Shown here piece after piece: positions 29,634 to 33,556 of a DNA stretch of 64,000 nucleotides. The position numbers and the translations under genes were made by a program. Position 1 is the first letter of the stretch. Each line of letters begins with the position of its first letter. Origin of the DNA: Vulgatibacter incomptus (GTDB taxonomy: Bacteria > Myxococcota > Myxococcia > Myxococcales > Vulgatibacteraceae); assembly GCF_001263175.1 (NCBI RefSeq), contig NZ_CP012332.1, forward strand, positions 180,001 through 244,000. Reading direction: 5' to 3'. Below the pieces are notes generated by a model. The model had not been told where the DNA came from. It made no database searches and saw only the letters and a list, made by a program, of their open reading frames with translations.

Positions 29634-29813
29634 GCGGATTGCCTTCCTGTAGAGAGCCGCCGCCGGCTCGGAATCGAATGACCAGGGCGGGAAGGCGGCG
29701 AGCATAGCAAAGGCAGGAGCGCGCGCCCAGGTAGCGCGAGCGCGCAGATCTTCGCCTCGCTGGCCACTTGCAGAGTCGACGCGGCTTCGTGCGAACCGGT
29801 ACCATCGGTGACG

Positions 29814-30446
29814 ATGACGCGAACGGGCCGTCCCAACCTCGGCAAGACGATCAAGGCCGTGATGCGCGACGCGGCGCGGCGGCTGCCCGAATTCGCCCAT
29901 ATTGACGCATCGCGGATCCTGATCGTCGCGGGGGAGGCGAGGCGGGCCAGCCGGGCGACCGTGCGCCCCATGTGCTTCGCCGACTCCCGGACCCGATTCT
30001 CTCTGGACGGGAAGCGGGCCAAGCCGATCGTGCAGCTCCGCGGCACGCAGATGCTCTACGTGGTGGCGTTCCGGCCCAGGTTCTTCATGCGGTCCACGCC
30101 CGAGCAGCGGGTGGAGACGATCCTCCACGAGCTCTGGCACATGGCGCAGGAGTTCGACGGCACCCTCCATCGGGCCCGCCGCCACGCAGTCCTACCGGGG
30201 CAACGGTTCCACGACGTGTTCCAGCCGCTGGTCAAACGCTATCTGTCCGCGGTGCCCCCCAAGCTCCTGGCCGCCCTCGCGTTCCATGGAGAGGGGATCA
30301 TGCGCCATTGGCTCGAGAGGCCCGCGCCCTTCTTCCACGTGGACGGGCGGAACCCGTCCAAGCCGGCGCGGCGCCCGATCTTCACGGAGGCCCAGCTCTT
30401 CTACGGGCCGGTGAAGATGATCACCCCTGACGCTTGGCGGCACTGA
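29814..30446 (+). CDS. Putative zinc metallopeptidase-like protein (HELWH)
   Basis: The 210-residue cytosolic protein carries a zinc-binding HExxH motif in ILHELWHMAQEFDGTLH near residue 102. A possible third ligand is His 113 or one of the following HRARRH histidines. No signal peptide or membrane segment is visible. It resembles proteins annotated as putative metallopeptidase in other bacteria; substrates are unknown. I preferred the ATG at 29814 over a GTG two codons upstream. Its last 26 bp overlap the end of the convergent fumarase beta gene. Confidence 0.7.
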   Translation: MTRTGRPNLGKTIKAVMRDAARRLPEFAHIDASRILIVAGEARRASRATVRPMCFADSRTRFSLDGKRAKPIVQLRGTQMLYVVAFRPRFFMRSTPEQRVETILHELWHMAQEFDGTLHRARRHAVLPGQRFHDVFQPLVKRYLSAVPPKLLAALAFHGEGIMRHWLERPAPFFHVDGRNPSKPARRPIFTEAQLFYGPVKMITPDAWRH

Positions 30447-31047
30447 CCTTCGGCGCGGCCAGACCCTGCTCCATCAGCGCCTGCGCTGCGTCGCGGGACT
30501 GGGCGAACATCGTCTCGTGGAGCGAGCCGCCGTGGGAGTCCATGGTGATCACGCAGGGGAAGTCCTTCACCTCGATCGACCACATCGCCTCGGGGACGCC
30601 CAGCTCGTCGAGCATGTGGGCGCCGTGGACCTTCACCACCTTCTCGGCGAGGACCACGGCGAGACCGCCGATGGCGTGGAGGTAGACGCAGCCGTGCTTG
30701 CGCATGGCCTCGAGCGTCCGCGGACCCATGCCGCCCTTGCCGATGACGCCGCGGACCCCGTACTGCTCGATCACCTGGGCCTCGTAGGGCTCCTCACGGA
30801 TCGACGTCGTGGGGCCGGCCGCCACGAAGCGGTAGCCGCCGTCAGCGGTCCGGCTGACGACCGGGCCGCAGTGGTAGAGGAAGCGATCGCGAGCGAGGCG
30901 ATCGAACTCGGGGTCGAAGGCCTTCACCAGGTGCTTGTGTGCGGCGTCGCGGCCCAGGACCATGGGGCCGCTGATCTCCACCTCGTCCCCGATCCGCAGC
31001 TCGCGGATGGCCGACTCGGTGATGGGAAGCTCGATCTTCTTGGGCAT
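30421..31047 (-). CDS. Class I fumarate hydratase, beta (C-terminal) subunit
   Basis: The 208-residue protein is the C-terminal half of the [4Fe-4S] fumarase/tartrate dehydratase family (GDEVEISGPMVLGRDAAHK, FLYHCGPVV, AAGPTTSIREEPYE, GKGGMG). It catalyses fumarate-malate interconversion in the TCA cycle together with the alpha subunit encoded 16 bp upstream. Its C-terminus ends with a short basic AAPKVSAAKRQG. The L-tartrate dehydratase beta subunit (TtdB) is the closest alternative. Confidence 0.9.
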   Translation of the reverse strand: MPKKIELPITESAIRELRIGDEVEISGPMVLGRDAAHKHLVKAFDPEFDRLARDRFLYHCGPVVSRTADGGYRFVAAGPTTSIREEPYEAQVIEQYGVRGVIGKGGMGPRTLEAMRKHGCVYLHAIGGLAVVLAEKVVKVHGAHMLDELGVPEAMWSIEVKDFPCVITMDSHGGSLHETMFAQSRDAAQALMEQGLAAPKVSAAKRQG

Positions 31048-31063
31048 GGCCGTTCCGGGGGAT

Positions 31064-32323
31064 TCAGAGGATGGGAAGCTTGCGGCGGGTCGCGCGGCGG
31101 GAGGGGATCGCCACTGCCGGCTTCTTGCCAGTCGACTTGGGGGCGGCCTTCTTCGCGGCCGCCTTGGCAGCGGTCGTCGCGGGAGCCTTGGCCAAGGTCT
31201 TTCCGGCCGCCTTCGCGGGAGCCTTGGCCACGGTCTTTCCGGCCGCCTTCGCGGGAGCCTTGGCCACGGTCCTTCCGGCCGCCTTCGCGGGAGCCTTGGC
31301 CACGGTCTTTCCGGCCGCCTTCGCGGGAGCCTTGGCCACGGTCTTCCCGGCCGCCTTCGCAGGAGCCTTCGCCGCCGCCTTACCGCCCGCGACCTTCGCC
31401 GCGGTCGCCGCCGACGCGGCCTTGCGCTTCGGGACCGCCACCGCGAGGGGCCTTCCGTCGAGGTGGGCCTTCTGCCCCTTCACGACCAGCTCACCCTTCC
31501 GATACGCCCAGCACATGTAGCTGATCGAGACGAAGAAGCTCGCCGGCACCCGGTGCCGCGCGCCGATCTTCACCCCGAGGACGGTGGTCTTCCCGCCGAA
31601 GCCCATCGGGCCGATGTTGAGCCCCTGGAGCGAGCCGGTGAGCTCCTGCTCCAGCGCGGCGAGGGTGGCGTTCGGGTTCTCGTCGTAGAGCGGGCGGAAG
31701 AGCTGCTCCTTCGACTCGATGTAGCTCGTGACGCGATCGCCGCCGACGCCGACGCCCACCGTGCCCGGCGCGCAGCCATAGCCCTGGGCCTTCTGCACCG
31801 CGTCGATGATGCAGCGCCGGATCCCGTCGAGGTCGCGGCCGGCGCCGATGCTCTCGTCGGGCAGCGAGTACTGGCCGCCGACGTTCTCGCAGCCGCCGCC
31901 CTTCATCATCAGCCGCACCTGCACGCCCTTCTCCTTGCGGGCGTGGAAGTGGATGTACGGGGAGCCGTTGCCGACGTTGTCGCCGGAGTTCTGTCCCGTG
32001 ATCGAGTCCACCGCGTTGGGGCGCAGGTACGAGCGCTTGGTGGCCTCGCGGACCGCGTCGACGATCTCCTTCTCGAGGGCGTGGGCGGTGTGGTCCGGGC
32101 CGTAGTCCACGTAGAAGATCAGCGTGCCGGTGTCCTGGCAGATCGGCGCGCTCGCCTCGCGGGCGGCCTCCACGTTCTGGATCATCAGCTCGAACGTCGA
32201 CCACGCGCGCGAGCCTTCGGTCTCGAGGTCGCGCGCCCGGGCCAGGGCGTCGAGCACGTCCTCGGGCAGCCCGGAGGAGGTGTGGCGGATCAGCTCGAGA
32301 AGCTGGGGTCTGAGAGTTGCCAT
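31064..32323 (-). CDS. Class I fumarate hydratase, alpha subunit with Lys/Ala/Pro repeat tail
   Basis: Residues 1-298 are a normal class I fumarase alpha subunit, with the probable 4Fe-4S ligands C62 (ICQDTG), C145 (GGGCENVGG) and C184 (GYGCAPGTVG). Residues 299-419 form a highly basic low-complexity tail. It contains five copies of KAPAKAAGKTVA and ends AIPSRRATRRKLPIL, closely resembling histone H1 or bacterial HU-like tails. No such tail is part of the known enzyme family. The open frame is continuous and has a normal ATG. The gene is divergent from pfkA across a 195-bp gap. Confidence 0.92.
   Translation of the reverse strand: MATLRPQLLELIRHTSSGLPEDVLDALARARDLETEGSRAWSTFELMIQNVEAAREASAPICQDTGTLIFYVDYGPDHTAHALEKEIVDAVREATKRSYLRPNAVDSITGQNSGDNVGNGSPYIHFHARKEKGVQVRLMMKGGGCENVGGQYSLPDESIGAGRDLDGIRRCIIDAVQKAQGYGCAPGTVGVGVGGDRVTSYIESKEQLFRPLYDENPNATLAALEQELTGSLQGLNIGPMGFGGKTTVLGVKIGARHRVPASFFVSISYMCWAYRKGELVVKGQKAHLDGRPLAVAVPKRKAASAATAAKVAGGKAAAKAPAKAAGKTVAKAPAKAAGKTVAKAPAKAAGRTVAKAPAKAAGKTVAKAPAKAAGKTLAKAPATTAAKAAAKKAAPKSTGKKPAVAIPSRRATRRKLPIL
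31181..31360 (-). repeat. Five 36-bp in-frame repeats in the fumarase tail
   Basis: The unit beginning GGGAGCCTTGGCCA on the plus strand starts at 31181, 31217, 31253, 31289 and 31325. Copies differ by only one or two bases, and each encodes 12 residues (KAPAKAAGKTVA with one R and one L variant). A degenerate unit begins at 31361. The near identity points to recent slippage or unequal crossover, so copy number may vary between strains. Confidence 0.9.
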
Positions 32324-32518
32324 CGACGATCACTCGCAGCTTGGTGGGGGTCTCGACTCATACAACCCGAGTGGCCCTCGCATCAATCGAATCTCGAGGA
32401 ATCCAGGCCGAGCCTCCGTGCGCCCGCTTGCCTCGAACGCGATGCGGACTCCATGTTCCCGGAAGCGAACCCGCACGCCCGCGCCATCGGCGCGAGGCCT
32501 TCCGGAGAAGGGGGCCAA

Positions 32519-33556
32519 GTGTCCCTCGTCAAGGTCGCGGTCCTCACGGGCGGGGGCGATTGCCCGGGCCTGAACGCCGTCATCCGCGCGATCGTGCGCC
32601 GCAGCGAGCAGCGCCACCTCGAGGTGATGGGGATCCGCGACGGCTGGGAGGGCCTCGTGGAGGAGCGGCACGAGCGCCTCACGCGCCAGCGCGTCTCCGG
32701 GATCCTCCACCTGGGCGGCACCATCCTGGGGACCTCGCGCTTCAACCCGTTCGCGATCGAGGACGGGCCGGAGCGCGTGATGCGTACGCTGCAGCGCCAC
32801 AACGTGGGCGCGGTGATCGCGATCGGAGGCGACGGGACCCTCTCGATCGCCCGCGAGATGCACGCCCTCGGGGTCTCGATCGTCGGAGTGCCGAAGACCA
32901 TCGACAACGACCTGGGCGGAACCGACTACACCTTCGGCTTCGACACCGCGGTCTCCATCGCCACCGAAGCCATCGATCGCCTCCACTCCACCGCCGAGGC
33001 GCATCAGCGAGTGATCGTGGTGGAGGTGATGGGACGGCACGTGGGCTGGATCGCGGCCTACGCCGGCCTCGCTGGAGGCGCCGACGCGATCCTCGTGCCG
33101 GAGCGCCCCGCCCGGATCGAGGAGGTGATCGAGCACGTGGAGCGGCGCCGGAAGGAGGGGCGGAAGTTCTCGATCATCGTCTGCGCCGAGGGCGCGATGG
33201 TGGATCTCGGCGAGGGCGCGAAGCTGATCTCCCGCGGCCGGGACGAGTGGGGCCACGAGCGCCTGGGCGGGGTCGCGCAATCCGTGGCACACGCGATCGA
33301 GAAGCGGACCGGGATCGAGACGCGGGTCACGGTGTTGGGCTACGTGCAGCGCGGGGGAAGTCCCACCGCCTCCGATCGGGTGCTCGGCACGAGGTACGGC
33401 GTGATGGCTGCCGATCTGGTCGCCTCGAAGCGGTGGGGGACCATGGCCGCCCTCCGCGGCAACGAGATTGTGGCGGTGCCGCTGGCGGACGCCACCCGCA
33501 GCCTCAAGCAGCTCGACCCGCGCATCTACGACGTCGCCAGCGTCTTCTTCGGGTAG
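32519..33556 (+). CDS. pfkA: 6-phosphofructokinase
   Basis: The 345-residue enzyme phosphorylates fructose 6-phosphate in glycolysis. Motifs are VAVLTGGGDCPGLNAVIR at the N-terminus, AIGGDGT at 102-107 and VPKTIDND at 124-131, plus VEVMGRHVGWIAAYAGL. Gly at the GGDG position favours ATP as donor, while Lys in PKTIDND is the residue typical of PPi-type enzymes; this pairing occurs in group III ATP-PFKs of actinomycetes. I chose the GTG at 32519, preceded by GAGAAGGGGG; an ATG at 32453 would add a disordered leader. The pseudouridine synthase gene follows after 9 bp. Confidence 0.9.
   Translation: MSLVKVAVLTGGGDCPGLNAVIRAIVRRSEQRHLEVMGIRDGWEGLVEERHERLTRQRVSGILHLGGTILGTSRFNPFAIEDGPERVMRTLQRHNVGAVIAIGGDGTLSIAREMHALGVSIVGVPKTIDNDLGGTDYTFGFDTAVSIATEAIDRLHSTAEAHQRVIVVEVMGRHVGWIAAYAGLAGGADAILVPERPARIEEVIEHVERRRKEGRKFSIIVCAEGAMVDLGEGAKLISRGRDEWGHERLGGVAQSVAHAIEKRTGIETRVTVLGYVQRGGSPTASDRVLGTRYGVMAADLVASKRWGTMAALRGNEIVAVPLADATRSLKQLDPRIYDVASVFFG

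Follow-up and report, generated by a model that had tools for sequence, protein, structure and literature searches.

H1-like tails rich in Lys, Ala and Pro are known from AlgP and PhaF of Pseudomonas, in which disordered KPAA repeats of variable number sit on a helical or a phasin domain. KPAA-type peptides bind DNA, and granules, a non-DNA structure, are believed to be anchored to the nucleoid by the tail of PhaF (PMC9239181). The PAKK/KAAK-type H1-like tail of mycobacterial HupB was reported to be indispensable for nucleoid association (PMC5676037). Actinobacterial TopA carries a lysine-repeat C-terminal domain, i.e., a Lys/Ala tail on an enzyme (PMC7398561). A connection between fumarase and DNA has been described as well. 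The fumarase of Bacillus subtilis co-localises with DNA, and the response to DNA damage depends on it (PMC5711358); fumarate and related metabolites act as modulators of AlkB in Escherichia coli (PMC12098349, which cites Silas et al. 2021). The two-subunit fumarase of Methanocaldococcus jannaschii (PDB 7xky) consists of separate alpha and beta chains, and it is the alpha chain that bears the three cluster cysteines.

The alpha chain of a class I fumarase-type enzyme from the myxobacterium Vulgatibacter incomptus shares this fold and, unlike 7xky, ends in a cationic tail. The tail resembles those of AlgP and PhaF in composition, disorder and repeats, but it is attached to an enzyme, and no sequence homology is claimed. 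The body of HupB is HU, which itself binds DNA, unlike fumarase; likewise TopA acts on DNA and fumarase does not. The B. subtilis enzyme is a different fumarase, and its abstract names no tail of this kind (PMC5711358). The literature searched gave no precedent for a lysine-rich extension at the C-terminus of a fumarate hydratase; a known enzyme and a known type of tail are thus combined in a way that has no precedent there.

Gene and catalytic core

The gene was analysed in a stretch of 64,000 nucleotides of the V. incomptus genome (the window), to which the following coordinates refer:

31430..32323, minus strand: class I (Fe-S) fumarase/hydro-lyase alpha chain core, residues 1-298 (Pfam, TIGRFAM, cysteines, structure match)
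31067..31429, minus strand: polycationic Lys/Ala/Pro tail, predicted to be disordered, residues 299-419 (composition, pLDDT, homologue comparison)
31193..31372, minus strand: five full 12-residue units AKAPAKAAGKT(V/L), residues 318-377 (from the listed units)
31067..31108, minus strand: conserved C-terminal 14 residues, IPSRRATRRKLPIL (in the sister genus IPSRRASATKLPVL) (ungapped C-terminal alignment)
30421..31047, minus strand: class I fumarase beta chain (Pfam PF05683, 1.9e-48; TIGR00723 above cut-off)

The minus-strand open reading frame 31064-32323 starts with ATG and encodes 419 amino acids; neither a frameshift nor an internal stop was found in it or ahead of the tail, either of which would, according to the first-pass annotation, have counted against its view. 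Residues 10-278 match the Pfam family Fumerase PF05681 (E 1.7e-71, 241 bits against a curated cut-off of 25), and the chain passes the curated cut-off of TIGR00722 (227 bits against 100.65). C62, C184 and C271, taken to be the Fe-S cluster ligands as in the rest of the fumarase family, are unchanged across an alignment of 12 homologues. The earlier assignment to a class I fumarase-type alpha chain with three cysteines is thereby borne out. In an AlphaFold model of the alpha chain alone, the core has a pLDDT mostly of 77-97, and the top Foldseek match of this model is 7xky_A, with a TM score of 0.88 by target length.

That the enzyme is specifically a fumarase, and not a tartrate dehydratase or a mesaconase, is less certain. 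Membership in the fumarase/tartrate-dehydratase alpha subfamily (TIGR00722) holds, but the equivalog cut-off of fumarate hydratase PRK06246 is missed (216 bits against 276); the score against the tartrate dehydratase model is 173 bits, below its cut-off of 365. Judged from these scores, fumarase activity of the tailed enzyme is likely. The V. incomptus genome also encodes a class II fumarase, FumC, above its cut-off and without a Lys/Ala tail. With two fumarases in this organism, a tailed and an untailed one, there would be room for specialisation. No FumC above the cut-off was found in the sister genome, which is 92% complete, and the class I enzyme is therefore probably the TCA fumarase there.

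Composition and conservation of the tail

The tail comprises 121 residues (A47 K26 T10 P10 G8 R6), contains no Asp or Glu and has a net charge of +32; its pI is about 12, against 6.2 for the core. From residue ~297 on, the AlphaFold model of the alpha chain alone shows no secondary structure and a pLDDT of 30-41. A sixth, degenerate 12-residue unit accompanies the five full ones, and the units are encoded by a 36-bp tandem array at window positions 31177-31373 (5.5 copies, 96% matches, TRF score 359). Composition and array confirm the Lys/Ala/Pro tail of 121 residues with five 12-residue repeats that had been proposed on first inspection. No NCBIfam family covering the tail and no Pfam family past the core was matched. 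Going by its sequence, the tail looks like an H1-like or KPAA-type tail, as it is predicted to be disordered, rich in Lys, Ala and Pro, built of short repeats and strongly basic. This likeness to H1 and AlgP is one of composition, and composition alone cannot establish homology.

The tail is in frame and coding, since its GC3 is 0.87, compared with 0.96 in the core, and a tail with a homologous end is found at the same place in the sister genus. Two plus-strand open reading frames over the tail (30935-33556 and 31071-31520) were rejected as shadow frames arising from the GC-rich repeats, because the homologues and the GC3 signal belong to the minus frame.

Conservation was judged from one pair of genomes, V. 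incomptus and the sole other Vulgatibacteraceae genome compared, which belongs to another genus; the sister MAG and QGUN01000060.1 have identical ORFs, are apparently one MAG and were counted once. The cores of the two alpha chains are 82% identical. In the sister genus, the same gene carries at the same place a comparable tail of ~105 residues (A34 K22 R9) with one acidic residue, a Glu, so that the tail is not missing from all close relatives. Neither the 12-residue units nor the 36-bp array were found in it. When the last 16 residues are removed, the alignment of the two tails scores 103.5, against 89.7 +/- 9.2 for shuffles, about 1.5 standard deviations higher. The last 16 residues themselves align without gaps, with 10 of 16 identical (P ~2e-4 by tail composition), and over the last 14 the pattern IPSRRAxxxKLPxL is kept. 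Three of the 10 conserved codons of this peptide differ synonymously, which equals the core rate (30%) and is as expected for retention at the protein level rather than for too little time since divergence. In this comparison, charge and the last peptide are the parts kept between genera, and not the repeats.

Both family genomes contain the pattern PSRRAxxxKLP a single time, in the tailed alpha gene; in the other 97 order-level genomes it turns up at scattered places. For the terminal peptide, a role as a genome-wide sorting signal was considered and rejected on account of this single occurrence per family genome in the tailed gene.

Outside the family, the alpha chains of the next relatives (76%, 70% and 63% identity) stop soon after the core. 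None of 12 further split alpha chains from Myxococcota carries the tail, and neither do the distant homologues examined; untailed split alpha chains end at most about 40 residues past the YMCWA motif. Conservation of the tail among myxobacterial fumarases, which the first-pass annotation had proposed to check, thus extends to the sister genus and not to those split class I alpha homologues that were examined elsewhere in the phylum. Presence in both family members and absence in the relatives examined imply that the tail was gained in, or retained only by, Vulgatibacteraceae. To judge from these sequences, it is a real, lineage-specific and compositionally conserved addition.

The same data bear on the question of whether the tail has a function at all. 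It might owe its origin to slippage or to the loss of a stop codon, the genome being GC-rich, and have drifted near-neutrally since then, tolerated as it is soluble and disordered and leaves catalysis undisturbed. The 36-bp array with its 96% identical units indicates a recent expansion, the middle of the tail hardly aligns between the genera beyond its composition, and close homologues outside the family do without it, all of which is consistent with such an origin. However, 18% of the core residues differ between the two genera, and both have kept the tail with similar charge and almost no acidic residues; its C-terminal peptide is conserved between them. As the comparison is informed by two species, a near-neutral tail keeps some probability, but we consider it rather unlikely.

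Lys/Ala-rich proteins elsewhere in the genome

The V. incomptus genome is a single contig of 4,350,553 bases. A test for such a composition was applied to 60 stretches of 20 kb and to the window, together ~1.26 Mb or 29% of the genome. Besides the tailed alpha chain, it flagged DNA topoisomerase I, a 217-amino-acid protein with KPAA repeats, a TfoX_N protein and a protein of 1093 amino acids. The last one (sampled stretch L044) was discarded as a comparable carrier, its C-terminus being of mixed charge. Searching at the DNA level for the repeat unit added an apparent RpoD, named from sequence motifs; it holds the best match to the 36-bp array elsewhere in the genome (76% over 55 bp). The carriers are the following, with positions given within the stretches (L numbers) where these are named:

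L055:1681-4449, plus strand: DNA topoisomerase I (TopA) with a C-terminal Lys/Ala tail (composition test)
About 3,204,098-3,204,751 (L077:4098-4751), minus strand: free-standing protein of ~217 amino acids with KPAA / AAKPAARK repeats, AlgP/H1-like, no Pfam match
L131:9067-9675, minus strand: protein with a TfoX_N domain and, at its C-terminus, a tail rich in Lys, Ala and Pro (composition test)
L150:1-2145, near 429,900, minus strand: apparent RpoD with a Lys/Ala-rich N-terminal region of ~200 residues followed by an acidic stretch

The Lys/Ala tail of TopA, here in a myxobacterium, resembles the lysine-repeat domain described for actinobacterial TopA (PMC7398561). A HU-family protein of V. 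incomptus has a short Lys/Ala N-terminus. A protein search with the tail against the genome gave no convincing paralogue, and composition correction probably hides such matches; two weak matches turned out on inspection to be unrelated repeats.

Among the carriers found in the 29% sample and by targeted searches, fumarase is the only metabolic enzyme, and the others appear from their sequences to be related to nucleic acids or transcription. This makes a role of the fumarase tail in binding DNA or another polyanion plausible, although the argument is one of guilt by association drawn from 29% of the genome.

Possible function of the tail and the alpha/beta junction

We favour, with moderate confidence, the interpretation by analogy that the tail is a polycationic tether that holds the enzyme to the nucleoid or another polyanion, combined with repeats expanded by slippage. 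The Lys/Ala/Pro stretch would bind polyanions non-specifically, chromosomal DNA in the first place and possibly also RNA or polyphosphate, and avidity would hold an enzyme complex with more than one tail within the nucleoid or close to it, much as has been proposed for the tails of PhaF, AlgP, HupB and TopA with respect to the proteins that bear them. The conserved C-terminal 14-mer may serve as a docking peptide. The 12-residue array would represent a recent expansion by replication slippage in a region that is under selection for composition and not for sequence. The precedents of PhaF/AlgP, HupB, B. subtilis fumarase and E. coli AlkB make a nucleoid role of the tailed fumarase reasonable by analogy, and nucleoid binding as well as any part in the DNA damage response would be an inference from them. 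What counts against a tether is that the known tethering tails are found on DNA-working or storage-granule proteins, whereas the tail of V. incomptus is on a soluble metabolic enzyme.

The sequence of the tail itself does not favour DNA over RNA or polyphosphate, and for a polycation, RNA, ribosomes, polyphosphate, membranes and acidic proteins are just as possible as targets. The tail might accordingly be an electrostatic scaffold for polyphosphate granules, for ribosomes or RNA, for an acidic membrane face or for an acidic TCA partner, with the 14-mer as a specific contact. Indeed, AlgP, which has a similar tail, is located at polyphosphate granules and, in cells without polyphosphate, on the nucleoid (PMC9239181), and the C-terminal peptide is both conserved and unique to the alpha chain within its genome. 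Such a scaffold is nevertheless unlikely in our judgement, the other carriers found in V. incomptus being nucleic-acid or transcription proteins.

Returning to the tether, a bolder version appears improbable to us, namely that in one family an acquired H1-like tail has brought a TCA-cycle enzyme to the nucleoid, to act there as a local sink of fumarate or source of malate that tunes fumarate-sensitive 2-oxoglutarate dioxygenases and DNA repair, while in V. incomptus FumC serves bulk metabolism. If the tail places fumarase on the nucleoid, it would constitute a natural gain of localisation, and the proposed link between fumarase and bacterial DNA maintenance would become testable by deletion of the tail, with the untailed FumC as internal control. 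If it does not, the tail shows how easily H1-like tails join enzymes in GC-rich genomes.

The beta chain (PF05683, 165 bits against a cut-off of 22.2) begins 16 nt past the alpha stop codon, and the order of the two genes is the same in the sister genus; they probably form one operon. An 11-nt string, AGCTTCCCATC, recurs at the junction (window positions 31017-31081): the alpha gene has it near its end, within KLPI, and the beta gene near its start, within ELPI. Both copies carry the otherwise rare Leu codon CTT. The match is weaker in the sister genus, and the sharing of the string at the junction is possibly due to chance.

A further explanation proceeds from this junction. The 14-mer could fold onto the enzyme itself, perhaps adding an edge strand close to the N-terminus of the beta chain, with the Lys/Ala part as no more than a long linker; the tail would then act on assembly or on protection of the cluster. 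The end of the alpha chain, RRKLPIL, resembles the start of the beta chain, KKIELPIT, and the two ends have the 11-nt string in common. This resemblance is short, however, and weaker in the sister genus, and AlphaFold predicts no structure at the C-terminal peptide of the alpha chain modelled alone; we therefore regard the folding back as highly improbable. Convergent with the fumarase genes, the plus-strand open reading frame 29808-30446 of the window contains a zinc-metallopeptidase-like HELWH motif and looks SprT-like by eye.
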